Source: Myxococcales bacterium (lineage in GTDB: Bacteria; Myxococcota_A; Polyangia; Polyangiales; Polyangiaceae). From it: a stretch of DNA of 41,195 nucleotides. The notes below the pieces were generated by a model. That model made no database searches. It was not told the origin of the DNA and worked only from the letters and a program-made list of their open reading frames with translations. The position numbers and the translations under genes were made by a program. Positions 10,601 to 28,821 of the stretch are shown piece after piece (position 1 is the stretch's first letter; each line of letters begins with the position of its first letter). Location of the stretch: positions 1 to 41,195 of the forward strand of contig JAAFHV010000054.1 in assembly GCA_013297655.1 (NCBI GenBank). Direction: 5' to 3'.

Positions 10601-11131
10601 TTACTGGTTGCGCTTGATGACGTGGAAGCCGAACGGGGTCTCGACCGGGTCGCTCACCGCGTCGATCTCGAGGGCGAACGCGGCGTCGGAGAAGGGCTTC
10701 GCCATCTTCTCGCGGGTGAACTTTCCGAGGCTGCCTTGGCGCTCCTTCGCGCCCGGGTCGTCGGAGTATTCCGCGACGAGCGAGCTGAAGTCGGTGCCCT
10801 TCTCGCGTGCCTTCTTCGCGACCTCGTCGGCGCGCTTCTTCGCTTCGGCCTTGGTGCGGCTCACGCCCTTCGGGCTGCGCTCGGCGCCCTTCCATGCGAC
10901 GAGCACGTGCTGGGCGGTGACGTGGGTCGGAGGCTCGTGGGCGCTCGATGGTGCGCGCGCGGACGGGGGCGACGGGGGCGAAGAGGGCGAGGGCACGACG
11001 GAAGCCGTGCTCGCCGTGCTCGTCGGGAGGCTCGACGAAGGAGGAGCGTCTTTCTTGTCGTCGCACGCGGCCGAGCACGCGAGCGCGAAGGTGACGGCGA
11101 TGACGGTCGTGAAACGAGCCGAGGCGTTCAA
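10601..11131 (-). CDS. Parvulin-type peptidyl-prolyl isomerase lipoprotein
   Basis: A 176-aa protein that begins at a TTG. The signal is VIAVTFALACSAAC (lipobox Cys about 19), followed by a Ser/Pro/Thr-rich linker. A PpiC/parvulin rotamase domain covers roughly residues 75-176: VTAQHVLVAWKG, KKRADEVAKKAREKGTDFSS, LVAEYSDDPGAK, GSLGKFTREKM, FSDAAFAL, DPVETPFGFHVIKR. It should assist folding of exported proteins in the periplasm or at the outer membrane. The TTG start is supported by a GGAAG ribosome binding site 7 nt upstream and by the TTGA overlap with the stop of the preceding gene, which implies translational coupling. Longer upstream reading in this frame is not coding. Confidence 0.85.
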   Translation of the reverse strand: MNASARFTTVIAVTFALACSAACDDKKDAPPSSSLPTSTASTASVVPSPSSPPSPPSARAPSSAHEPPTHVTAQHVLVAWKGAERSPKGVSRTKAEAKKRADEVAKKAREKGTDFSSLVAEYSDDPGAKERQGSLGKFTREKMAKPFSDAAFALEIDAVSDPVETPFGFHVIKRNQ

Positions 11132-12018
11132 CGTCCGGCTTCCGTTCGTTGGTAGCGGGGTCCGCCCGCGACGAAGGTGCGCAGCGGGCGACGCCCGATG
11201 TACGGCGCGAGGCCCATCGCGTGAGAGCTGTCCGGTGTCGCGTAGAGCCAGGCTTTTCGGAGCTCCGCGTCGTACACCGGGGGCGCGACAGGCCCACCAG
11301 AGACCCCGAGGACCGCGAGCTTCGGGGCCTCGCTCGCGAGCACGCTGGTGCCAGCCGCACGCTCGAGCTCTTCGCCGCGGAGGAGACGGGATGCGAGCTC
11401 CTCGTCGAACAAGTCGGTGGCGCGTGCGTAGACAAAAAGCGACGTGGTCGCGGGGCGGCGGACAGCTTCCTCGCCGTGCCAGGCGACGTGGGGGGCGCGC
11501 GGTCCCCAGCCCACGACGCACGCGCGCGGGTCGCCGGTTTGGCAGCCGTCGCCGACGCGGAACGCGACCCACGCCCCGGAGTAGCGACGACCAGGGACCC
11601 AAGCCCACGCTCCGCGCCGCGCGATGTACGTCCAGCGCCCGTAGTGGAACGTGACCCAGCCCCACGCGACGTCGCTCACCCAGACGTAATCCGGACGGCC
11701 CTGGTTCTCGCGGTAGGCGAAGTGACCGTGCGAGGCATATGGGACGAAGCCCTCGCCCACTTCTTCGCTGCGCGGCACCCAGACCATGCCCGCTACGTCG
11801 TCTTCCACCCACGTCCCGTAGGGGGCGAGCTCCGGACGGAAGAGCGAGAGCGCTTGCGGGTCCGCGTCGTCGAACTCGGTCGCGGCGGTGGCCTGCGTAG
11901 GATGCGTGCTCACCCCGACCGGCCCCTGGAGGTCAATCGAATGCCCGCACCCCACGACGAGCATCGGCGCGAGCGCGAGTAGGATCGGGGATTGCGCGAG
12001 GGCACGTACGAGGCGCAT
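11128..12018 (-). CDS. Trp-rich DUF6600-like lipoprotein
   Basis: A 296-aa lipoprotein starting at the ATG of MRLVRALAQSPILLALAPML with lipobox VVGC. The mature part has repeated Tyr/Trp-rich beta segments: LAPYGTWVEDDVAGMVWVP, HGHFAYRENQGRPDYVWVSD, WGWVTFHYGRWTYI and GAWAWVPGRRYSGAWVAF. This is the signature of the DUF6600-type proteins found in Gram-negative envelopes, which have no established biochemical role. The C-terminal third (residues about 190-296) is not recognisable. It is translationally coupled to the downstream parvulin lipoprotein (4-nt overlap), so the two probably act together in the envelope; the parvulin may help fold this Pro- and Trp-rich protein, which is inference. 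Confidence 0.8.
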   Translation of the reverse strand: MRLVRALAQSPILLALAPMLVVGCGHSIDLQGPVGVSTHPTQATAATEFDDADPQALSLFRPELAPYGTWVEDDVAGMVWVPRSEEVGEGFVPYASHGHFAYRENQGRPDYVWVSDVAWGWVTFHYGRWTYIARRGAWAWVPGRRYSGAWVAFRVGDGCQTGDPRACVVGWGPRAPHVAWHGEEAVRRPATTSLFVYARATDLFDEELASRLLRGEELERAAGTSVLASEAPKLAVLGVSGGPVAPPVYDAELRKAWLYATPDSSHAMGLAPYIGRRPLRTFVAGGPRYQRTEAGR

Positions 12019-12261
12019 GGGCCGACTCCAGACCACCTCTCGGCGGCGATACGAGATGAGACAATGATGGGAGCGCACGGAAAGCTCGGTGTCAACGCAG
12101 CGCCCGACAAATCCTTCCAAGTTCGTAAGGTCGACGGCCGAGCCCGTTGGGGGGCGGTAGCGACGTGGCGGGCGGGGAGCGACGAGCCTTTCGTAAGGTC
12201 TCGGAATGGGGCGCTTCTTGTCGTGCGGTTGGTCGCTTCGGCGGATTTCGGCCACGAGGGC

Positions 12262-12978: not shown

Positions 12979-13045
12979 GGAAGCTCACCGCGCCGGAAGA
13001 TGACCGGTGCCGGAAGCTGAACCGCGCCGGAAGATCACCAGCGGT
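12979..13045. repeat. Tandem 33-bp repeat overlapping the end of rpsG
   Basis: Two copies of about 33 bp (12,979-13,011 and 13,012-13,044) each consist of two GGAAG-headed half-units of 16-17 bp (GGAAGCT then GGAAGAT). The right copy includes the last codons and stop of rpsG, so the repeat looks like a duplication of the gene end, now filling the 3' untranslated region before the terminator. Confidence 0.7.
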
Positions 13046-13505
13046 AGTGAGCGAACGCCTTGTTGGCCTCGGCCATCTTGTGCGTGTCGTCGCGCTTCTT
13101 GACCGCGTTGCCACGGCCGTTCGCCGCGTCGAGGAACTCGGCCGCGAGGCGCTCGCGCATGGTCTTCTCGCCGCGGTCGCGGGAGTAGGTCACGATCCAG
13201 CGCATCGCGAGGGCGACGCGGCGCTCGGGACGAACCTCGACCGGAACCTGGTAGGTCGCACCGCCGACACGGCGGCTCTTGACCTCAAGCTTGGGCTTCA
13301 CGTTGTCGAGGGCCTTGCGGAACACCTCGATCGGGTCCTCCTTGAAGCGCTCGCCGATGACGTCGAACGCGCCGTAGAGGATACCCTCTGCGGTGGCCTT
13401 CTTGCCGCCGTACATGAGGGTGTTCGTGAACTTCGAGACGAGCTTGTCCTTGAACTTCGGATCGGGTGTGATCTTGCGCTTGGGGACTTCGCGGCGACGA
13501 GGCAT
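13035..13505 (-). CDS. rpsG: 30S ribosomal protein S7
   Basis: This 156-aa protein nucleates assembly of the 30S head by binding the 3' major domain of 16S rRNA and contacts the E-site tRNA. Family landmarks are [70 protein letters not shown] and the ending [13 protein letters not shown], the standard S7 length and C-terminus. It lies 97 bp downstream of rpsL on the same strand. Unlike the usual str operon, no fusA or tuf follows: a terminator comes first. In other bacteria S7 represses its own operon by binding the rpsL-rpsG intercistronic mRNA; whether the 97-bp spacer here does so is untested. Confidence 0.98.
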
Positions 13506-14190: not shown

Positions 14191-14997
14191 TCAGACGAAG
14201 ACATCCTCGATTCGTGCCGCGATGGCGGCCTTGGCCGTCCACGCGGTGAGCTTCGTGGAGGAGCGCTCCTCCATCAAGAGGGCCTCGTGGGCCGCGGTCG
14301 GGGTGAATCCACGGGCGGCGAGCACGGCGCGAAGGCCGGCCCGGGCAGCTCCTGCGGCCCCTTCTTCGCGTCCTTCTTCGCGCCCTTCTTCGCGCCCTTC
14401 TTCGCGAACGGCGTCGAGGCTCGCGTAGCCGCGGCGCTCGAGGAGGTTCTTCAGGGTGAGCTCGTGGGCGCGCTCTCGGTCGTACAGAGCTTCGACGGGG
14501 ACGTCGTTTTTGAGGATGCCAGGGGCGCGCAAGACGGCGCCGGGGCCGCGCGTGACAGCGGGTTTTCCGGGCTCGTAGACCTCGACCCGACGCGCTCCGA
14601 GCAGGCGGACGACCCACACGAAGCGGGTCCCCGCAGCGAGGAGCTCGGTGATTTTTTCCTGGAGCTCGACCTCGTCTTGGCCTGCGCTCGCGTATTCCAC
14701 CGCGAGGGGAGGGACGCCGCGGATGAAGCCGCGTTGGTCGGGGACCGCGCCGACGGCGATGTCCGGCGCGCGCAAGCTACCGTCACCGAAGGTGTATCCG
14801 GCGTCGATTCCGGTCTCGGTGACGTCGGGATCCGTGTCGAGGACCTGGGCGCCGACCACCGTTCCGCGTGCGCCATCGCCGCCGGTGGGGCCACAGTAGT
14901 AGGCGTGACCGTTCGAGAGCTCGTAACGATCGCCCGGCTTCAAATGCTCGACGCGAAAGGGACCGGGCTGGCCTTCTTTCTTGCGGGCGTCGCTCAT
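14191..14997 (-). CDS. Uma2-family (DUF820) PD-(D/E)XK nuclease-like protein
   Basis: A 268-aa protein starting at MSDARKKEGQ. The core carries YELSNGHAYYCGP, LRAPDIAVGAVPD and PLAVEYASAGQD ... LQEKITELLAAGTRFVWVV. This is the Uma2/DUF820 arrangement, where the Asp of PDIAV and the acidic residue after LAVE belong to a restriction-endonuclease-like fold. The classical Lys of the motif is not obvious here, so activity is uncertain. A C-terminal acidic/basic repeat (EEGREEGREEGREEG) precedes a short helical tail, as often seen in Uma2 and Rpn-like proteins. These genes are frequently multi-copy and of unknown role. It lies upstream of, and on the same strand as, rpsL but has a separate promoter. 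Confidence 0.75.
   Translation of the reverse strand: MSDARKKEGQPGPFRVEHLKPGDRYELSNGHAYYCGPTGGDGARGTVVGAQVLDTDPDVTETGIDAGYTFGDGSLRAPDIAVGAVPDQRGFIRGVPPLAVEYASAGQDEVELQEKITELLAAGTRFVWVVRLLGARRVEVYEPGKPAVTRGPGAVLRAPGILKNDVPVEALYDRERAHELTLKNLLERRGYASLDAVREEGREEGREEGREEGAAGAARAGLRAVLAARGFTPTAAHEALLMEERSSTKLTAWTAKAAIAARIEDVFV
14361..14406. repeat. 12-bp tandem repeat encoding GREE units
   Basis: Four near-perfect copies of CTTCTTCGCGCC on the plus strand, encoding the Gly-Arg-Glu-Glu units of the Uma2-like protein. A repeat of this kind can change copy number by slippage without shifting frame. Confidence 0.85.
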
Positions 14998-15092
14998 GAC
15001 CGCAGTATAGCGCGCGGGCGGCGGCGGCGGGGTGGGCGTGAAAAAAAGCGGCACGCGCGCGGACATCGGCGGTAAACGCGAGACCCTTTCGA

Positions 15093-17396
15093 ATGGCGTC
15101 GCACGAGAACCTCGGCCCGAAGGGCGGCCCGCGGCCAGAAGGCCGAGCGAAGCGCGTCGCGTTCGTCGGGATCGTCGTGTACGCGGCGGTCGCGGCGCTG
15201 CGTGCTACTTCGTTGCAACATGCACCCACCTGGCTGACGGCGGGGCTCGCGGTGCTCCTCGCGTATTTCGGCTCGAAGCCGCGTCTGCTCGACGACGCCG
15301 CCGACGACGGGCCGCGCCAGCTCGCCACCCTCGGGTTCGCGATGACCCTCGCGACGAGCGCGATCCCCGAGGCGCTGCCCCTCCCGTCGACCCTCGCCGC
15401 GATCGGGAGCGCGCTCGGTGTCACCGGTGGGCTCCGTGCCCTCGCGCGGGCGAGCGGCCCGGAGAGCGTCGTGACGAAGCGCGGGCACGTCTCGTTCGTC
15501 TACACGCTCGCCGCGTTCGCGCCGGCGGTGCTCGCGGTGGTGAAGCTCGCCCTCTCCGGCCTCGGGAAAAAGGCGCTCGCGTCGGACTTGCCGAATCGCC
15601 CCGCGATCGAAGCGATGATCCCCGCGGGGGCGCTTTTTTTCGCCGCGATCGCGCGAATGCTGTCGGCGCGCCTGGAGCTCGGGACTCGTGAGCGTACCCG
15701 CGTCGCGTTCGGGTTGACGGTGCTCTTCCCCGCGATCGCGGCGGTCCTCGCCGCCACCTCGAGCTCCCCCGTGCTCTCCCACGTGCGCTTCTTCGCTGCC
15801 GGCTCGGGGGTCGCGATCGCGTGGGTGTGCGGTCACGGTGAACCGGTGCAGATTGCACAGATCTCGCGACGCGCCCTCGCGCTCGGGGTCTACCTCGGAC
15901 CGGCGTGCATGCTCGGGGCGCTCTTCACCGCTACGCACGAGAACGCGGCCCCGGCGTACACGTTCGTCACCGGGGTCGTGGTGCTCGCGCTCTCCCTCTT
16001 CGTGTCGTCGTTCGAGACGTCGTTCTTGCCTGCCTCGGGGAAGCTGCTTACCGCGGTGTCGCGCGCGCATTCGGCGCTCTTGGAGAGCGAAGCGAGCGAA
16101 GCCGTGCGGCTCTCGCTCGAGAGGGTTCGAGAAGCCTCCGGGCCGAACGATGGCTCGCCCGAGCTGTGGATGCTGGCCCCGCCGCGGGTGCTCGCGATCG
16201 ACGCGGCAGGCTATCCGCACACCCGAAAAGCGGAGCTCCCGACGACCATGATCGACGTGTGCTCGCGCGAGCCGTTCGGCGTGCTGCGGACCGAGGTCCT
16301 GCGCGCGCTCGAGGTGCGACGTCCCGACCTTCGTGGCCTCCTCGCGTGGCTCTCGGATCGTCACGCTTCGGCTGCTGTCCTCGTCGCGGCGGGAGGTGAG
16401 GCGGAGGGGCTCTTGCTCGTCCCCGGAGGCTCGCGCGAGGAGCCTTTTGCGCTCGAGGAGGCGGTCGCCCTGAAGCGACTCGGCGACGCGCTCTCGGCCG
16501 CGTGCCAAGGGGAGAGCGCGCTCACGCGGAGCCTCGGACGCGAGAAAGACGCCCGCGACCGCGCGGAGATCGCGACCGATCACGCCGAACGCATCCGCCA
16601 TCGCGCCTCACTCGACGAGAACCGGAACGTCGCGGCGACGACGCGGCTCGCCCGCGCGGCTCACGTTGGTGTGTATTCTACATCGATTAGGATGGCCTAC
16701 GAGACGCTCGAACGCCGCGTGCAGCGCGGCGCGCCGGTCGCGGTCGTCGCAGCCTCGGGGAGCGCGGCGGTGCCGTACGTCGCGCGGGCGCACCTCGCCG
16801 GGCCCCGTCGTGCGCGTCCCCTCGTGGTCGTCGATGGCGCTGCGACCCAAGAGCACGATCTCGCGTCGTGGAGGGACGAGGCCACCTCGCCGCTCGGCCT
16901 CGCCGACGGGGGCGTCCTCCTTCTCGTCGACGTGGGCGCGCTGCCGCTCGACGTGCAAAAGCTGGTCGCGCGTGCGCTCGCCGACAAAAAATGCCCTTGG
17001 GAGCGTCCCGAGCCGCTCGACATTTGTCTCGCGGTGACGTCGTCACGCCCCCCGGAGGAGCTCGCCGACGAGGGGGAGCTCGATCCACAGATCGTGGCGC
17101 GCCTCGGCGACGCAGCGTTCGAGCCGATTCGGTTCCCGGCCCTCGGCGAGAGGGCCGAAGATCTCCGCGCGCTCGTCGCCGACGCGCTCGCGCGAGAGGG
17201 GCTGCGCCTTCGTGGCAGAGCGATTGGCCTCGACGATCGTGCGTTCGCGGTGCTGGTCGATCACGACTTTCGCGGGGAAGACGCGGAGCTCGCCGCGCTC
17301 GCGAAGCGATTGGTTCGCGGGGTAAAACCCGAGGTCGACGTGGTCTCCGCTGCCGACGTGCGCCGCGAGCTCCCGAACGTCGCGACCGACGAGTGA
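15093..17396 (+). CDS. Membrane-bound, degenerate sigma-54-activator-like AAA+ protein
   Basis: A 767-aa protein. The N-terminal half has about eight hydrophobic segments (to about residue 315, e.g. VAFVGIVVYAAVAAL, LTAGLAVLLAYFG, VYTLAAFAPAVLAVVKLAL, FVTGVVVLALSLFV). A GAF-like region follows (about 330-480), ending GLLLVPGGSREEPFALEEAV, then a coiled coil. The C-terminal region (about 515-767) follows the fold of bacterial enhancer-binding AAA+ domains: VVAASGSAAVPYVARA at the Walker A site, GGVLLLVDVGALPLDVQKL at Walker B, CLAVTSSRPPEEL at sensor I and FPALGERAEDLRALV. However, the Walker A GxxGxGKE and the GAFTGA sigma-54 loop are gone, Walker B reads DV instead of DE, and no C-terminal Fis helix-turn-helix follows. 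It is therefore unlikely to hydrolyse ATP or drive open-complex formation. A scaffold or decoy regulator at the membrane is a hypothesis. Confidence 0.75.
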   Translation: MASHENLGPKGGPRPEGRAKRVAFVGIVVYAAVAALRATSLQHAPTWLTAGLAVLLAYFGSKPRLLDDAADDGPRQLATLGFAMTLATSAIPEALPLPSTLAAIGSALGVTGGLRALARASGPESVVTKRGHVSFVYTLAAFAPAVLAVVKLALSGLGKKALASDLPNRPAIEAMIPAGALFFAAIARMLSARLELGTRERTRVAFGLTVLFPAIAAVLAATSSSPVLSHVRFFAAGSGVAIAWVCGHGEPVQIAQISRRALALGVYLGPACMLGALFTATHENAAPAYTFVTGVVVLALSLFVSSFETSFLPASGKLLTAVSRAHSALLESEASEAVRLSLERVREASGPNDGSPELWMLAPPRVLAIDAAGYPHTRKAELPTTMIDVCSREPFGVLRTEVLRALEVRRPDLRGLLAWLSDRHASAAVLVAAGGEAEGLLLVPGGSREEPFALEEAVALKRLGDALSAACQGESALTRSLGREKDARDRAEIATDHAERIRHRASLDENRNVAATTRLARAAHVGVYSTSIRMAYETLERRVQRGAPVAVVAASGSAAVPYVARAHLAGPRRARPLVVVDGAATQEHDLASWRDEATSPLGLADGGVLLLVDVGALPLDVQKLVARALADKKCPWERPEPLDICLAVTSSRPPEELADEGELDPQIVARLGDAAFEPIRFPALGERAEDLRALVADALAREGLRLRGRAIGLDDRAFAVLVDHDFRGEDAELAALAKRLVRGVKPEVDVVSAADVRRELPNVATDE
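15214..15224. repeat. Dispersed palindrome, copy 3 (TGCAACATGCA)
   Basis: A perfectly symmetric copy inside the degenerate activator gene, coding phase TG-CAA-CAT-GCA. Confidence 0.7.
15847..15857. repeat. Dispersed palindrome, copy 4 (TGCAGATTGCA)
   Basis: A symmetric copy in the same gene, coding phase TG-CAG-ATT-GCA, 633 bp after copy 3. Confidence 0.7.
16672..16682. repeat. Dispersed palindrome, copy 5 (TGTATTCTACA)
   Basis: The only copy with TGTA on one side and TACA on the other. It is the third copy in the degenerate activator gene and lies in a locally AT-rich patch at the junction before its AAA+ part. Confidence 0.7.
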
Positions 17397-17416: not shown

Positions 17417-18517
17417 TCAGCGAATCGTGAACGGATCGGCGCAGACGCGGCTCTCGAGCACCTCGGCGCTCGGGAGCGCGTCGCGTAGACGCGCGACGAG
17501 CGGGGCCATCGCTTTGCGCTCGCTGTTCGAGTGGAGAGTCGCGACCACAGTCACGCCGGCCTTGGCGGCGGCGAGGGCGTCGTGGTGGCGCATCTCACCG
17601 AGCACGAAGAACGTGGCCTCCTCGCGGCGGACGTCCGGCAACATGTCGCCGCACGCGCCGGCGCCGACCGCGGCCCGCGTCACGGTGCCGCTCGTGGGGC
17701 CGGCGACGAGCACGTGCGAGAGCCCGAGCGCGCCTTTGAGCTTCGTCACCAGGGTGTCCACCTCGATCGGTGCGAGATCGCCCACCCTTCCGTAACCGAT
17801 GGATGCTCTTCCCTTTTCCGGTCCCGGAGCGAGGCGCACCAGATCGTAGGCCGGAGTTTCGTACGGGTGCGACGCGAACAGGGCGGCGACGACGGCGGGT
17901 GACTTTGCGATCGGACAGACGACCTCGAGCCGAACCTCCGGCGCGTGCTGGAGCACCCCGCGCGTGCCCACGACCGGGTTCGTCGTGTCGCCACCGAGGA
18001 ACGTGCCGACGCCGGGCCCGCGAAACGTGCAGTGTGCATAGTCTCCGATGACGCCTGCTCCCGCTTGCCCGAGCGCCCACGCCACCGTCTCGACCGCCTC
18101 GGTGGGAACGAACGTGACGAGCTTGTAGTCTGCATCTTTCTCGGGAAGCGCGCGCAGGGCTTTGCGGTTCGTCATTCCGAGCGCGTCGGCGAGTACGTCG
18201 TTCGTGCCCCCCTCCGCCGCGTCGAGGGCCGTGTGGGGGGAGTAAATCGCGATCCCCAGCCGCGCGGCATCGAACGCGACGTCACCGGCGAGGACGCGCT
18301 TCTTCGCTTCGAAAATCGGCGGGTGATACGCCACGATCGAGGTCGCCCCGAGGGCGAGCGCTTCGTCCCACACCGCGGGCGAGAGATCGATGCACACGAG
18401 CACCTTGCCGAGGCTCGCGGCGCGATCGCCGACGAGGAGCCCCACGTTGTCCCAGTGGGCGGCGTTGCGGGTCGGAGCGATGCGGTCCATCGCGCGGCAC
18501 AGGTCGTCTACCTTCAT
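17417..18517 (-). CDS. Nif3-like dinuclear metal-centre protein with YqfO/CutA-like insert
   Basis: A 366-aa member of the Nif3/DUF34 family. The start at MKVDDLCRAMDRIAP has a GAGG site a few bases upstream. N-terminal half: NAAHWDNVGLLVGD, VLVCIDLSPAVWDEAL and IVAYHPPIF, where the His of YHPP is a metal ligand. A central insert (about residues 125-230: DYKLVTFVPTEAVETVAWAL ... HPYETPAYDL) is the PII/CutA-like domain found in longer homologs. C-terminal half: VGAGACGDML, GEMRHHDALAA and VATLHSNSE supply the remaining His and Glu ligands. The family is nearly universal and its reaction is not settled; GTP cyclohydrolase I-like annotations are unreliable. Two dispersed palindromes lie within the insert-coding part. 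Confidence 0.9.
   Translation of the reverse strand: MKVDDLCRAMDRIAPTRNAAHWDNVGLLVGDRAASLGKVLVCIDLSPAVWDEALALGATSIVAYHPPIFEAKKRVLAGDVAFDAARLGIAIYSPHTALDAAEGGTNDVLADALGMTNRKALRALPEKDADYKLVTFVPTEAVETVAWALGQAGAGVIGDYAHCTFRGPGVGTFLGGDTTNPVVGTRGVLQHAPEVRLEVVCPIAKSPAVVAALFASHPYETPAYDLVRLAPGPEKGRASIGYGRVGDLAPIEVDTLVTKLKGALGLSHVLVAGPTSGTVTRAAVGAGACGDMLPDVRREEATFFVLGEMRHHDALAAAKAGVTVVATLHSNSERKAMAPLVARLRDALPSAEVLESRVCADPFTIR
18028..18038. repeat. Dispersed palindrome, copy 6 (TGCAGTGTGCA)
   Basis: A symmetric copy inside the Nif3-like gene; minus-strand phase T-GCA-CAC-TGC-A. It lies 96 bp from copy 7. Confidence 0.7.
18124..18134. repeat. Dispersed palindrome, copy 7 (TGTAGTCTGCA)
   Basis: Inside the Nif3-like gene; minus-strand phase T-GCA-GAC-TAC-A. 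Confidence 0.7.
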
Positions 18518-18638
18518 GGGGCCCTCGTCTCGGTCTTCGCGGTTCGCATGGCACTCGATCGTAGGTGCACGCGATCGGCCGTACCACGGAACGTTTCGGG
18601 TGCCCAACGAGCTGCGCTGCGCTGATAACCTCGGGCGC

Positions 18639-19034: not shown

Positions 19035-19553
19035 TCAACCTCCGCCGAGCACGTACGCGAGCAAGCCCTCGAGTCGTGATGCCTCTCCGCGCGAGATGCC
19101 GTCGACGTGCGGCGAGTCGACGTCGAGCACGCCGATCACGACGTCGTCGCGCCGACGCACGATGGGAATCACGAGCTCCGAGCGAGAGCGGTCGTCGCAC
19201 GAGATGTGACCCGGATAGGCATGGACGTCGGGGACGAGCTGCGTCTCGCGCGAGCGCGCGGCCGCCCCGCAGACCCCGCGCTCGAACGCGATCCGGAGGC
19301 ACCCCATCGAGCCTTGGTAGGGACCGACGGTGAGCATGTCCTTCGAGGTATGACGGTAAAATCCGCAAAAATTGGCCTGCGCGAGCGTCTCCCACAAGAG
19401 ACAGGCGAGGGTAGCCATGATCGCGACCTCGTCGGTCTCGCCTTCGAGGACGGCGCGGATCTTCGGGAGCGCGAGATCGAGGCGGGCGAGTCGCTCCTTC
19501 TCCGGAAGCAGCGTGCCGCGGGGGACGGCAGGAAGATCGATCCCCTCGCTCAC
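19035..19553 (-). CDS. msrC: Free methionine-(R)-sulfoxide reductase (GAF domain)
   Basis: A 172-aa single GAF-domain enzyme that reduces free L-methionine-(R)-sulfoxide with thioredoxin, part of oxidative-stress repair in the cytosol. All three catalytic cysteines of the fRMsr family are present: Cys85 (GSMGCLRI), Cys95 (ERGVCGAAA) and Cys119 (GHISCDD), close to the numbering of E. coli YebR (84, 94, 118). Other landmarks are WETLAQANFCGFY, VPDVHAYPGHI, SELVIPI and GVLDVDSP. The start is a GTG whose GTGA overlaps the stop of the upstream RNB ribonuclease gene, so the two are translationally coupled. That pairing is unusual but may only reflect operon packing. Confidence 0.92.
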   Translation of the reverse strand: MSEGIDLPAVPRGTLLPEKERLARLDLALPKIRAVLEGETDEVAIMATLACLLWETLAQANFCGFYRHTSKDMLTVGPYQGSMGCLRIAFERGVCGAAARSRETQLVPDVHAYPGHISCDDRSRSELVIPIVRRRDDVVIGVLDVDSPHVDGISRGEASRLEGLLAYVLGGG

Positions 19554-21289
19554 GGGGTGACCTCGCCGAGCTGGATCACCCATCGGTCCTGCTTTTCGTC
19601 GCGCCCCTCGGTGAACACCTCGACCTCGTCGCCGAGGCGGACGACGACCTCGCCGGTCTCCTTGTTGCGGAGGCACGCGCCGCCATCGGCGGTGACGAGC
19701 CACGCGTTCTTGCGGCCGCGGCCCACGTCGCGGAGGTAGAGCTTCACGTCGAGGGGCGGCTCGCGGAGCGCGACGTGGAGCTTCGACGAGGTGAAGCCCA
19801 TGACCGTGCCGCGACGGCGGGGCCGGCTCTCCGGGCCGAGGGCCATGTCGGCGCCGAACACACGATCGAGGTAGTAACGACCGACCAGATCGTTCGCTTT
19901 GCGTTGCGCGTCCTTCGAGCGGTTCGCGGCGACGACGACGGCCTCGCGGAGCGCGCGATCGACCGCGCCTTTGCCGGTGAGGAGCTCGAACATCTCGTGG
20001 TGGACGAACACGCCGACCACCTCGCGCATCGGAGCGGAGAATCGCGCGTACGCCTCGGCGCCGACGCCGTGATGGAGGCCGACCTCGGCGGAGAACGAAG
20101 AGCGCGCGTTGACCACGATCGCTTGGCGATGAATCGCGTCGGCGATGCGGGCCTCGGGGCCGTCGACGGGGAGCGCAGCGAGATATTCCGCGATCGATTG
20201 TTTCTCCGGATCGAACTTGAAACGAGAGCCGAGCTCGTGGACCGCGACGACGCCGTCCAACGTCTCGCGGAGCTGGGCGAGGCGCTCCTCCGGCGGCGAC
20301 GGGTGGACGCGATAGATGGGCTCCACGTGCGCGGCAGGGCTCGCGAGGAGGGCCTCTGCCCCTTCGCGGTTCACGAGGAGTGAGAGCTGCTCGTTGTAGA
20401 GCTCGACCGGGGCGCGCGGAGAGTCGACGAGCTCGAGACGCTCGCCGCGATCGCCGAGGACGCGGAGCTCGGTCTCGCCGCGCCGATAACGGGCTACGTC
20501 GCGGGTGCGCGCCTCGGCGATGAGCGCGTTGCCGACATCGCGCAACGCATCGAGACTCTTGGTGAACTCGGCCTTCGCGAGCGGGCCGGCGCCGCCGTCG
20601 TAGTAGGCCTGCACCTCGGGAAACGAGAGCTTCGCGCGGCTCTTCACCCGCGCCCGGATCACGTTGGTGCCGAGCACGCTCCCGTCCGTCCCGATCTTGA
20701 CGCGGAACACGAGCGCCCTCCGCGGGCCGTCGGGGTTGAGCGAGACCATGCCCTCGGAGAGCTCGCGCGGGAGCATCGGGATCGAGAATCCTGGAAGATA
20801 CACGCTCGCCCCACGCGCGAGCGCCTCGGTGAAGAGCGCGCTCCCCCGTGGGACGAAGTACGCGGCGTCGGCGAGGGCGTAGTCGACGCGAAATCCCCAC
20901 GACGAGGCTTCGACGAAGAGGGCCTGATCGAGATCGCGCGAGGTGGGCCCGTCGATCGTGACGAAGGGGAGGTCGGTGAGGTCCTCGAGCGACGGATCGT
21001 CGAGCGAGGCGGCGAGATCGATACGAGCGACCTCGGCGCGAACGGCAGGCGAAAAATACGGGTTCGACCCGATCTCGAGCGCGACACGGAACATGGCGGC
21101 GCGGGCGGTTCCTCCTTCCGCGAGGCGCGTGTAGCCCGCGATCGTGCCGGCCGGAGAGAGCGCGACCTCGAGGATGTCGCCGGGGCCGACCCCCTCGGGG
21201 GCTTCGGGGAGGGGGCCTTCGTGGAAGGTAGAGGTGAGGGTTCGCGAAGGCGAGACCTCGGCGAGGACAAGGGTCGAATCGGAGCTCAT
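19550..21289 (-). CDS. RNB-domain (RNase II/R family) exoribonuclease
   Basis: A 579-aa 3'-5' exoribonuclease-like protein. After an N-terminal beta-rich part (about 1-95) comes the RNB domain with the metal-binding stretch FVTIDGPTSRDLDQAL (Asp113, Asp119, Asp121). The fourth Asp of E. coli RNase II is Gln here, as in the DLDQ subgroup of the family. Further family features are GSALFTEALARGASVYLPG, PMLPRELSEGMVSLNPDGPR, EAQYY-like VQAYYDG and YARFSAPMREVVGVFVHHE. A C-terminal S1/OB-like segment (RRRGTVMGFTSSKLHVALRE ... LGDEVEVF) would bind RNA. It lacks the long CSD and basic tail of RNase R. The start at MSSDST is preferred because the earlier ATG (21,304) lies inside a dispersed palindrome. 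Confidence 0.88.
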   Translation of the reverse strand: MSSDSTLVLAEVSPSRTLTSTFHEGPLPEAPEGVGPGDILEVALSPAGTIAGYTRLAEGGTARAAMFRVALEIGSNPYFSPAVRAEVARIDLAASLDDPSLEDLTDLPFVTIDGPTSRDLDQALFVEASSWGFRVDYALADAAYFVPRGSALFTEALARGASVYLPGFSIPMLPRELSEGMVSLNPDGPRRALVFRVKIGTDGSVLGTNVIRARVKSRAKLSFPEVQAYYDGGAGPLAKAEFTKSLDALRDVGNALIAEARTRDVARYRRGETELRVLGDRGERLELVDSPRAPVELYNEQLSLLVNREGAEALLASPAAHVEPIYRVHPSPPEERLAQLRETLDGVVAVHELGSRFKFDPEKQSIAEYLAALPVDGPEARIADAIHRQAIVVNARSSFSAEVGLHHGVGAEAYARFSAPMREVVGVFVHHEMFELLTGKGAVDRALREAVVVAANRSKDAQRKANDLVGRYYLDRVFGADMALGPESRPRRRGTVMGFTSSKLHVALREPPLDVKLYLRDVGRGRKNAWLVTADGGACLRNKETGEVVVRLGDEVEVFTEGRDEKQDRWVIQLGEVTP

Positions 21290-21299
21290 GTTCGGGTGC

Positions 21300-21310
21300 T
21301 GCATTCTACA
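21300..21310. repeat. Dispersed palindrome, copy 8 (TGCATTCTACA)
   Basis: Located 11 bp upstream of the chosen start of the RNB gene. On the minus strand it contains TAGAAT, which could double as a -10 element. Confidence 0.65.
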
Positions 21311-22768: not shown

Positions 22769-22780
22769 ACCCCCCGGTCA

Positions 22781-23479
22781 ATGCGCACGCGTCCGCTCCT
22801 CCTGTCCTTCTCGCTGCTCACGTTCGGCTCCTTCGGGGCTCTCACGGTCGGTTGCGGCAACGCGGACGAGCCCTACAAGGCGACGCCGGCGTGGTCGGGC
22901 AAGAAGGCGAACATGCCGCCCGTGCCCCAGCTCCCGACGAACCCGATCAAGTCGGGCGACGCGTTCACGATCTTCGGCGCGCGGCATCACCTCCAGAGCC
23001 GCATCCACGACAAGGAGGTCACCTCGAAAGAGATCTCCATCGTCGGCTACATCGTCAAAGAGAACGTCACCGACGCCCCCGAGTGCGCGATCCACAAGAC
23101 CGGCAAGGCCGATCCGGAGAACTGCAAATCCGAGATCCCCTCGTTCTGGATCGCCGACGCCAAGGGCGAGAACAAGGTGATGATCCGCGTCCTCGGCTGG
23201 GCGAAGAACTACGCCACCATCTTCGAGGCGATGGACAAGTACAAGAACGCGAAAGAGGCTCCGAAGGAGCTCTACAAGGACGAGGTCTGGAGCATCGACG
23301 TCCCGTACCCGCTCCCCGCCGTCGGCGCGAAGGTGAAGGTCACCGGCAAGTACGGAACCACGTTCTCCAAGTCGAGCACCGGCATCGTGAGCGATCCGAT
23401 GAACGGCGTGCTCACCTACGCGAAGATCGAGTACCTCGAGCCCGGCGCCGCCCCGCTCGCCTTCGCGAAGAAGAAGTAG
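22781..23479 (+). CDS. Lipoprotein of unknown function, OB-like core
   Basis: A 232-aa lipoprotein. The signal MRTRPLLLSFSLLTFGSFG is followed by the lipobox TVGC (Cys25). The mature protein begins with a Pro-rich stretch (PPVPQLPTNP) and then FTIFGARHHLQSRIHDKEVT, EISIVGYIVKENVTDAPECA, IPSFWIADAKGENKVMIRVL and VPAV-type beta strands (YPLPAVGAKVKVTGKYGTTF). The pattern of a VGYIV strand, a charged loop and VKVTGKYG suggests an OB-like beta barrel, as in proteins that bind nucleic acids or small ligands. Two cysteines (ECA, NCK) are 15 apart and may form a disulfide. I do not recognise a named family. A terminator follows, so it is a single-gene unit apart from the possible leader peptide. Confidence 0.8.
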   Translation: MRTRPLLLSFSLLTFGSFGALTVGCGNADEPYKATPAWSGKKANMPPVPQLPTNPIKSGDAFTIFGARHHLQSRIHDKEVTSKEISIVGYIVKENVTDAPECAIHKTGKADPENCKSEIPSFWIADAKGENKVMIRVLGWAKNYATIFEAMDKYKNAKEAPKELYKDEVWSIDVPYPLPAVGAKVKVTGKYGTTFSKSSTGIVSDPMNGVLTYAKIEYLEPGAAPLAFAKKK

Positions 23480-26664: not shown

Positions 26665-28821
26665 ATGCCCGATCTCGGGGACAAAGCGCGCGAGGACTTC
26701 TTCTCCGAGGCGCAGGAGATCGTCGACGGTCTGAGCGGAGATCTTCTCCGCCTCGACGAGATCGTGCGTCGCGGCGACTCGGACGCCGAGCTCGTCAACG
26801 ACGTGTTCCGCGCCGTGCACACGATGAAGGGGCTCTCGGGGCTCTTCGGCGTCACGATGATGTCCGGGCTCTCGCACGAGCTCGAAGAGCTGCTCGACGA
26901 CCTCCGCCTCGGACGCGCGGAGCTCACGTCGGGGGTCATGGACGTGCTCTTCCGCGCCGTCGACCTCTTCGGCCGGATCCTGATCGCGGCGCGTGGCGAC
27001 GGGCCGGAGCCGGCCGACGAGGTGAAGGAGCTGCTGGCCTCGCTCGGCAACGTGGCCGACACGAAGGCGGGCGGTGGCGCGGGCGTGGTCGCGCAGTACG
27101 AGCTCGATCCGGGCGTGCTCGGCGTGCTCACCGAGTACGAGGAGCACCGGCTCCGCGTGAACCTCCAAGCGCAGAACCGCCTCTACCGGCTCCGGGTCGC
27201 GTTTCCGCTCGCGACGATCGACACCGCCCTCGACGAGCTGAAGGCCAAAGCGCGCCCACAAGGCGAAATCATTACGTATTTGCCGGTCGGGGATGGCGGC
27301 GATCCGGACGCGGTGGAGCTCGAGATTCTGCTCGCGAGCAAGGTCGCGGAGCACGATTTGCTGTCGTCGCTCGCGGCGCCGAACGTGGTGATCGAAGAGG
27401 TCAAGAAGCGCCCTCTCGCCGGCAGCTCGGACCGCCTCTCGTCCGGGCGTCCCGTGTTCGCGGAGGCCGAGATCGGCACCGGCGGCAAGATGCCCTCGCT
27501 GCGCGCCGACGAGAGCCGAGAGGCGAGGCCATCGCAAGACGAGCCCTCCCCGGGCACCCACGGCGCGGGCACGATGTCGCTCAAGTCGGTGAGCCAGACG
27601 GTGCGCGTCGACATCCGGCGCCTCGATCACCTGATGAACATCGTGGGCGAGCTCGCGATCGTGCGCGGGCAAGTGGAGCGTCTCGCCGAGCGCACGCGCG
27701 CGACCCCGCAGCTCCGTGAGATCAACGCGGAGGTGCAGCGCCTCCATCGCGCGTTCGAGCGCCACCTCACCCAGATGCAGAACGGCATCCTCGAGGTGCG
27801 CATGGTGCCGCTCGGGCAGGTCTTCGAGAAGCTCGCGCGCGCCGTTCGTCAGATCTCGCGTGAGGTCGACAAGCCGGTGAACCTCGTCGTCACCGGGGCG
27901 GAGACCGAGATCGACAAGCTCATCGTGGAGGAGCTCTCCGACCCGCTCGTTCACATGATGCGAAACGCGATCGACCACGGGATCGAGTCGCGTGACGGCC
28001 GGATGATGGTCGGAAAACCCACCGTCGGAACGATCGCGCTCAACGCATTCCAGAAGGGAAATCAGGTCGTCATCGAGGTCGAGGACGACGGGCGCGGGAT
28101 CGATCCGAAGGCGGTCCTCGCCGCCGCGTTGCGCCTCGGGTTCACGACGCAGGATGAGGCCGCGCTCCTCGGGGAAAAAGAGATGCTCTCGTTCCTCTTC
28201 TCGCCCGGGTTCACCACGCGGGCAGAGGCGACGCACCTCTCCGGCCGCGGCGTGGGGCTCGACGTGGTGAAGACGAACATCGGGCGCCTCGGCGGTGTGG
28301 TCGGTGCTTCGAGCGATCTCGGCATCGGCACGAAGATGACGATCACGCTCCCGATCACGCTCGCGATCATGTCGGTGCTCGTGCTCGAGGCGGGCGGCCA
28401 CACGTTCTGCATGCCGCTCGCGAGCATGGAAGAGGCTATTTTTCTCGATCCACGCGAGGTACGAAAGGTGGAGGGGCGCGAGGTGATGACCCAGCGCGGG
28501 CAGACCTTGCCGCTCGTGCGCCTCGCGCATCTGTTCGGCTTCGAGGAGAACGACGACATGCGGCGCGGCGAGCCGATGCGAAAGTACGTGGTCATCGTCT
28601 CGGTGGGACCGAAGCGCGCGGGCTTCGTCGTCGATCGCCTCCAGGGGCAACAAGACATCGTCATCAAGGCCCTCGGGCGCTCGCTGAGAGGCGTGCGGGG
28701 CTTCGCGGGCGCGACCGAGCTCGGTGATCAACGCGTGGGCCTCGTGCTCGACGCCGGCGCGCTCCTCGACGACGCGGTGACGCTCGGCGAGAGCCGTCAG
28801 CTCCCGGAGGCGCGCGCATGA
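26665..28821 (+). CDS. cheA: Chemotaxis histidine kinase CheA
   Basis: A 718-aa hybrid-free CheA. The P1 Hpt domain carries the phospho-acceptor His52 (FRAVHTMKGLSGLFG). A P2-like segment (about 150-260: RLRVNLQAQNRLYRLRVAF ... VELEILLASK) is followed by a Ser/Pro linker. The P3 dimerisation helices (VRVDIRRLDHLMNIVGELAI) precede the P4 ATPase with MMRNAIDHGIE (N box), VEDDGRGIDP (G1), FLFSPGFTTRAEATHLSGRG (F/G2) and GLDVVKTN. The P5 CheW-like domain is TLPITLAIMSVLVLEAGGHT ... GFVVDRLQGQQDIVIKALG. It is the first gene of a unit with two cheW genes, each overlapping by 4 nt. In the cell it would phosphorylate CheB and an unlinked CheY-like partner. Confidence 0.96.
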   Translation: MPDLGDKAREDFFSEAQEIVDGLSGDLLRLDEIVRRGDSDAELVNDVFRAVHTMKGLSGLFGVTMMSGLSHELEELLDDLRLGRAELTSGVMDVLFRAVDLFGRILIAARGDGPEPADEVKELLASLGNVADTKAGGGAGVVAQYELDPGVLGVLTEYEEHRLRVNLQAQNRLYRLRVAFPLATIDTALDELKAKARPQGEIITYLPVGDGGDPDAVELEILLASKVAEHDLLSSLAAPNVVIEEVKKRPLAGSSDRLSSGRPVFAEAEIGTGGKMPSLRADESREARPSQDEPSPGTHGAGTMSLKSVSQTVRVDIRRLDHLMNIVGELAIVRGQVERLAERTRATPQLREINAEVQRLHRAFERHLTQMQNGILEVRMVPLGQVFEKLARAVRQISREVDKPVNLVVTGAETEIDKLIVEELSDPLVHMMRNAIDHGIESRDGRMMVGKPTVGTIALNAFQKGNQVVIEVEDDGRGIDPKAVLAAALRLGFTTQDEAALLGEKEMLSFLFSPGFTTRAEATHLSGRGVGLDVVKTNIGRLGGVVGASSDLGIGTKMTITLPITLAIMSVLVLEAGGHTFCMPLASMEEAIFLDPREVRKVEGREVMTQRGQTLPLVRLAHLFGFEENDDMRRGEPMRKYVVIVSVGPKRAGFVVDRLQGQQDIVIKALGRSLRGVRGFAGATELGDQRVGLVLDAGALLDDAVTLGESRQLPEARA

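Follow-up and report, generated by a model that had tools for sequence, protein, structure and literature searches.

The closest described relatives of the protein reported here are NtrC-type activators, and several of their defining residues have published consequences. In PspF, the RxDxxxR set is reported to be required, and the Walker A change K42A is reported to impair ATP binding and related activities (PMC3419264). Activators without GAFTGA are already known: the NtrC proteins of Rhodobacter capsulatus and Caulobacter are described as missing the motif through deletion of loop 1, and activity at sigma-70 promoters is reported for GAFTGA-less activators, of which VpsR does without ATP, R. 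capsulatus NtrC requires ATP binding and Caulobacter NtrC requires its Walker residues (PMC10274813). Activators are also reported to hetero-oligomerize (PMC9542535; PMC7057263). Among the open-access papers listed, judged by title and opening of the abstract, none describes a member of this family that is both membrane-anchored and Walker-less; within the same scope there is none on an activator that combines loss of its whole ATPase site with anchoring in the membrane and retention throughout most of an order of bacteria. Such silence, confined to open-access coverage, is no proof of absence.

Here we describe a protein encoded in the window (the whole 41,195-nucleotide stretch of DNA that was analyzed) whose inner end is an activator motor domain minus its fuel-binding and target-touching parts, yet which most of the Polyangiales genomes examined retain. 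We regard its identity as a membrane-anchored pseudo-enhancer-binding protein, conserved across the order, as very likely. Our best reading of its function, to which we assign a probability of roughly 0.55, is that of an ATP-independent, membrane-tethered pseudo-activator acting through protein contacts in the window's lineage.

Architecture of the window protein

The limits and length of the gene hold as a preceding sequence-only reading had called them (Table 1). A full-length model of the window protein (pLDDT 91.5) comprises ten helices in the N-terminal part, a GAF-like alpha/beta domain, a helix and an AAA+ head, and the membrane helices are consistent with hydropathy averaged over the family. 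That reading had counted about eight membrane helices; the membrane part stands and the count does not, since the model gives about ten and the hydropathy agrees. Its GAF-like region is corroborated by modeled secondary structure and by profile matches but not by Pfam, which placed the region below cut-off or did not list it in the family members scanned. For the window protein Pfam listed no receiver domain and, at E values up to 10, neither HisKA nor HATPase, with the HMMER filters discarding most matches above about E 0.1.

Table 1. Positions in the window of the gene, its domains and motifs, and neighboring genes
Feature	Residues	Window positions	Strand	Basis or remark
Whole gene	767 aa	15093..17396	+	Open reading frame and translation
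About ten transmembrane helices	16-302	15138..15998	+	Model helices; family-averaged hydropathy
GAF-like domain	334-450	16092..16442	+	Model secondary structure; profile matches to membrane histidine kinases
Long helix	454-524	16452..16664	+	Model; putative signaling role
AAA+ alpha/beta core, catalytic residues gone	530-683	16680..17141	+	Homology, fold, alignment
Degenerate Walker A	553-560	16749..16772	+	Lys replaced by Ala; central Gly 556 retained
W-x-D-x3-S-P stretch	593-600	16869..16892	+	Site of the deleted loop 1 with GAFTGA
Walker B remnant	606-618	16908..16946	+	Asp gone; Glu replaced by Asp 613
AAA+ lid	684-745	17142..17327	+	Best conserved region; sensor II Arg gone
C-terminal tail without HTH		17328..17393	+	Alignment; no HTH family in Pfam scan of the window protein
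DUF6600 protein		11131-12255	-	
Ribosomal protein S7		13038-13505	-	
Uma2-type protein		14194-15066	-	
NIF3 protein		17420-18607	-	
RNB-domain protein		19553-21304	-	
Lipoprotein-like ORF		22769-23476	+	Named by eye
CheA-like protein		26665-28818	+	

The GAF end of a profile built on the front half matched nine fetched proteins, in which the membrane part of the profile had no significant match. Seven of the nine (710 to 813 residues; all but the longer L233 and L235) were scanned and are histidine kinases by NCBIfam; the five of these seven that were also scanned with Pfam contain HisKA and HATPase. Because the GAF end matches histidine kinases, the layout resembles the sensor half of a kinase followed by the output half of an activator, and both the kinase core and the receiver are missing.

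An NtrC-type fold without its motor residues

An NtrC-type order of AAA+ elements had been proposed for the C-terminal region, and both sequence homology and an NtrC-family fold with its lid bear this out. The window protein alone fell just under the cut-off of Pfam Sigma54_activat (E 0.0016), matched NCBIfam ntrC over residues 533-761 (E 4e-8) and, by phmmer against the PDB, matched FleQ/NtrX at about 1e-9. The C-terminal part of a profile of 59 family sequences, the window protein among them, matched ZraR in the PDB at 5.2e-48 and also NtrX, NifA, NtrC1 and PspF. A model of residues 506-767 (pLDDT 96.1) had sigma-54 activators as its best Foldseek matches (1.7e-14) and aligned to NtrC1 (1ny5) with a Z of 23.3 and an rmsd of 2.4 over 236 residues. 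Structure comparison assigns the head to the NtrC1/FlrC/PspF type of fold, and an unrelated fold for the C-terminal region is rejected because the model matches sigma-54 activators. The Pfam family AAA_lid_14 is weak in the window protein and over cut-off in L083, L089 and L109.

We read motif positions against one ordinary activator of the window's genome (L003) in an alignment of 73 family rows, which includes the truncated L054, L105 and L108 as well as L096 with its unread bases; of the five comparison rows in the alignment, L004 and L005 are wrong-strand readings and no activators. The Walker A Lys is present in none of 72 rows, with A559 at its place in the window protein, and Gly556 at the center of the motif is retained in 70 of 72. 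The Walker B Asp is likewise found in none of 72 rows (V612 in the window protein), and the Walker B Glu in two of 72, with Asp standing there in 58 (D613 in the window protein). Of the six GAFTGA columns, the first has a gap in 17 of the 73 rows and Gly in 3 of the remaining 56, and each of the other five has a gap in 63 to 72 rows. The first finger Arg occurs in 1 of 71 rows (D664 in the window protein), on which count we judge a clamp-loader-like finger-donor role unlikely. The second finger Arg occurs in 37 of 70 rows, the sensor II Arg in 10 of 70 (A731 in the window protein) and the complete RxDxxxR set in none of the 69 rows that remain when L054, L105, L108 and L096 are dropped. By alignment, the 34 residues that follow the sensor II motif of the window protein contain no HTH.

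A pattern test found neither Walker A nor GAFTGA in any of 109 family AAA segments (those of at least 180 residues and at least 60 bits). The same test recognized Walker A in 34 of 34 and GAFTGA in 26 of 34 rows of ordinary activators, which come from six genomes of the order, the window's among them, were picked for a good match to the family profile and include two identical pairs. Eight of these ordinary activators (L206, L216, L226, L227, L211, L222, L010 and L006) have Walker A and no exact GAFTGA-type pattern, and may be additional cases in which the usual contact with sigma-54 is not used.

The losses of Walker A, of the Walker B Glu, of GAFTGA and of the C-terminal DNA-binding helix claimed by the sequence-only reading are thus upheld, the last by Pfam as well as by alignment. 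So is its description of an ATPase-null, membrane-tethered relative of sigma-54 activators: the catalytic residues are gone, the fold is kept and the membrane helices are modeled. The head is predicted to keep the NtrC-family fold and, by alignment, is missing the residues on which normal ATP use and sigma-54 contact depend; a head of this kind would serve as a nucleotide-independent switch or as an oligomerization surface. A point that counts against our best reading is that Walker loss by itself may be compatible with binding of another nucleotide. The fold matches listed include structures of FleQ and VpsR, some of whose titles name bound c-di-GMP, and the head might bind a nucleotide such as c-di-GMP as those two proteins do; the residues of the ATP pocket are gone, however, and we hold this to be improbable.

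Retention across the Polyangiales

A profile search detected the membrane-plus-GAF half, at E 1e-10 or better, in 166 of 183 Polyangiales genomes, some of these matches being partial at contig ends; the AAA+ head was examined in the fetched subset. Counted by quality and genus, the half is present in 103 of 111 good-quality genomes of the order and in 75 of 83 genera, nearly always as one match per genome, and 17 genomes of the order, 8 of them good-quality, have no match. Outside the order, the matches listed came from 8 genomes in a class sample of 192, with the GAF end only (profile positions about 423-514), and from 1 genome in a phylum sample of 140, with the same GAF segment. Of 13 named loci, two are distant matches and eleven belong to MAG records labeled Myxococcales, Polyangiaceae or Labilithrix. 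The order is taken to be the Polyangiales from one named relative, Labilithrix luteola, which is a member of it.

A single branch divides the dead heads from ordinary activators (84 versus 34 rows, SH-aLRT 100) in a tree made by a quick search without bootstrap, from whose 118 rows 25 of an original 143 had been removed by hand as near-copies, cut or short. Relatives' frames were read from stop to stop, so that their N-termini are approximate; L168, L166 and L148 are the same genes as L091, L099 and L106, and match the profiles. A search for orthologs with the same losses, and for any that retained Walker A or GAFTGA and so pointed to local decay, had been suggested by the sequence-only reading. 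All 109 segments lack both motifs, and we reject local decay of the window copy because the motifs occur in none of the relatives examined. A phage origin is also rejected, with no PHROGs match. Similarity by chance is excluded because the protein is conserved across the order, and the fact that most of the order genomes examined keep the protein suggests a function without the motor.

Mean identity to the window protein rises along the chain in the ten nearest rows, from 23% (membrane part) through 48% (GAF-like domain) and 53% (core) to 59% (lid); the corresponding values for the full set of rows are 19%, 37%, 35% and 43%. The lid, highest by both measures, is the best conserved part. We calculated dN/dS by a simple counting method in 15 hand-picked close pairs, two of which share L079 and none of which contains the window protein. 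The ratio was below 1 in all 15 pairs, ranging over 0.10-0.39 in the core, 0.08-0.39 in the GAF-like domain and 0.07-0.76 in the membrane part; in the lid it was 0.06-0.24 in 14 pairs and 0.65 in one with a dS of 0.06. The core exceeded the lid in 13 of the 15 pairs and the GAF-like domain in 12. The core is constrained, less so than its neighboring domains, and its higher dN/dS, together with an all-row identity slightly below that of the GAF-like domain, implies that part of it may be mere spacer. Both these higher core ratios and the missing catalytic motifs would suit a decaying remnant whose head has no function. That idea is largely refuted by the conservation of the lid, by ratios below 1 in every pair and by retention of the front half in so many genomes of the order, and we consider it very improbable indeed.

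HTH-bearing relatives and the probable order of losses

Not every member of the family lacks a DNA-binding domain. A pattern recognized a Fis-type C-terminal HTH in 31 of 106 members, all 31 from Polyangiales families other than the window's; the count dropped L054, L105, L108, L169, L096 and L110, five of which were among 111 rows. The pattern was tuned to the family, so that its zero score for ordinary activators is meaningless, and it missed a degenerate HTH-like end in L100. Pfam placed HTH_8 over cut-off in all three HTH-bearing members scanned (L083, L089 and L148), and their sigma-54 domain match was well above cut-off in the first two and just below it in L148. By the pattern test, the AAA+ heads of the HTH-bearing members lack Walker A and GAFTGA too.

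On the tree the HTH state requires four changes, and a single HTH-less set of 51 rows (SH-aLRT 99) is made up of the window's family and family f8. Because the HTH persists on the motor-dead heads of 31 members, death of the motor apparently preceded loss of the HTH, an order of events that we infer from the tree. Because other families keep the Fis-type HTH, the older job of the family was probably DNA-bound regulation without sigma-54 contact. At the site of loop 1, W593, S599 and P600 each occur in 46 of the 51 HTH-less rows, and HTH rows have G (16 of 16) and W (14 of 16) at the last two positions of the stretch. The alignment suggests that in HTH-less rows a new conserved W-D-SP stretch apparently took the place of the sigma-54 contact. 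Relatives with and without the HTH offer a natural experiment in how an AAA+ motor becomes a non-motor signaling part.

These HTH-bearing members raise the prospect that the protein is a membrane-tethered DNA-binding regulator throughout, with the window's lineage binding DNA through another surface such as the tail. Besides the HTH counts, it can call on the 31 of 75 HTH-less members whose tails are basic, with at least 7 K/R among the last 25 residues. Yet the window protein has neither an HTH nor a basic tail (3 K/R and 6 D/E in its last 25 residues), 7 of the 31 HTH members are basic-tailed as well, and five HTH-less members are acidic-tailed. Set against one another, the two frequencies of basic tails leave the basic tail unsupported as a general substitute for the HTH, and we find DNA binding throughout the family quite unlikely. 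Strongly acidic tails occur in the HTH-less L149, L162 and L163, which have 9, 10 and 11 D/E, respectively, in their last 25 residues.

The HTH-bearing members also bear on the possibility, raised by the sequence-only reading, of a dominant-negative poison or sponge whose dead head enters mixed rings and traps active activators at the membrane. The dead head retains the activator fold, and with RxDxxxR incomplete in all 69 rows any mixed ring would be impaired. The window's genome has at least 62 other activator-like matches (150 of 294 candidates scored), and there is precedent in reported HrpR/HrpS hetero-hexamers and in VnfA paralogs that are reported to interact in two-hybrid tests (PMC9542535). 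The incomplete trans-acting RxDxxxR set, however, fits an inert subunit and equally amounts to a changed subunit interface, which makes mixed rings less certain. Residues of that interface are altered, the HTH-bearing members have no need of such a role, and the mostly single-copy state of the gene speaks for one specific partner over general poisoning. Given the HTH in related members, a pure sponge or poison could fit HTH-less lineages only; it may fit the window's, and overall we rate it as rather unlikely.

Genomic context

In the window, the gene is preceded by a Uma2-type gene and the gene for ribosomal protein S7 and followed by NIF3 and RNB genes; these four are encoded on the opposite strand. 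Farther along, the window encodes a CheA-like protein with Hpt, dimerization, HATPase and CheW domains. In relatives close to the window protein, permease/ABC-like ORFs precede the gene and a lipoprotein-like ORF follows it, both named by eye from sequence. Homologs of the lipoprotein-like ORF of the window lie directly downstream of the gene in L040, L041, L043, L044, L045, L048 and L109. Neighbor clustering gave, among the matches listed, no order-wide operon partner and only clade-level partners.

At 14 of 74 loci an ORF for a Ser/Thr kinase overlaps the gene's open frame or is no more than 400 bases away from it, a count in which many loci end at contig ends and near-copies such as L092 and L093 are entered separately. 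The kinases occur in four arrangements: downstream on the same strand (L055, L058, L066, L067, L071 and L115), upstream on the same strand (L084 and L086), divergent (L082, L089, L090, L092 and L093) and convergent (L107). There is no Ser/Thr kinase within about 10 kb on either side of the window gene. A functional link to the adjacent kinase is possible; since such kinases are very numerous in these genomes, with at least 95 to 103 PF00069 matches in each of 12 genomes, adjacency is only a weak lead.

A model for function

We return to our best reading, the ATP-independent pseudo-activator tethered to the membrane. The membrane helices and the GAF-like domain would sense a signal at the envelope, and the long helix would relay the resulting state to the AAA+ head. 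The output would then differ by lineage. HTH-bearing lineages probably carry out membrane-tethered transcription regulation without sigma-54 contact, and could be seen as GAFTGA-less activators fixed to the membrane. For the window's lineage we expect protein contact to be the sole output, the likeliest partners being other activators or some other membrane-held protein.

A more specific form of this scheme can be imagined, in which the protein, retained throughout the order, acts from the membrane as a brake on sigma-54 control. An ancestral tethered transcription factor would have lost its motor and afterwards its DNA-binding end; in the window's family it would have turned into an anti-activator gated by a signal, using the motif that stands in place of the GAFTGA loop to hold at the membrane one or more of the many active enhancer-binding proteins of the cell. 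We offer this version tentatively and think it unlikely as it stands.

Comparison with known regulators

Of the known systems, the sigma-54-dependent enhancer-binding proteins (NtrC1, FlrC, FleQ, ZraR and PspF) share with this family the AAA+ fold, the lid and the order of residues in the core. The family differs from them in having no Walker A Lys, no Walker B Asp, no GAFTGA and no complete RxDxxxR set, and the window protein differs further in its approximately ten membrane helices and in its want of an HTH. The GAFTGA-less activators of sigma-70 promoters (R. capsulatus NtrC, Caulobacter NtrC and VpsR) resemble it in combining an NtrC-type AAA+ domain with the absence of GAFTGA. In contrast to the membrane-anchored window protein, these activators are not described as membrane proteins in the passages cited (PMC10274813), and unlike the NtrC proteins among them the window protein has no listed receiver domain and no DNA-binding domain. 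Membrane histidine kinases with a GAF domain, of the AtoS/PrsK-like kind, are matched by the GAF end of the front half; where those kinases carry HisKA and HATPase, the window protein carries a dead AAA+ head.
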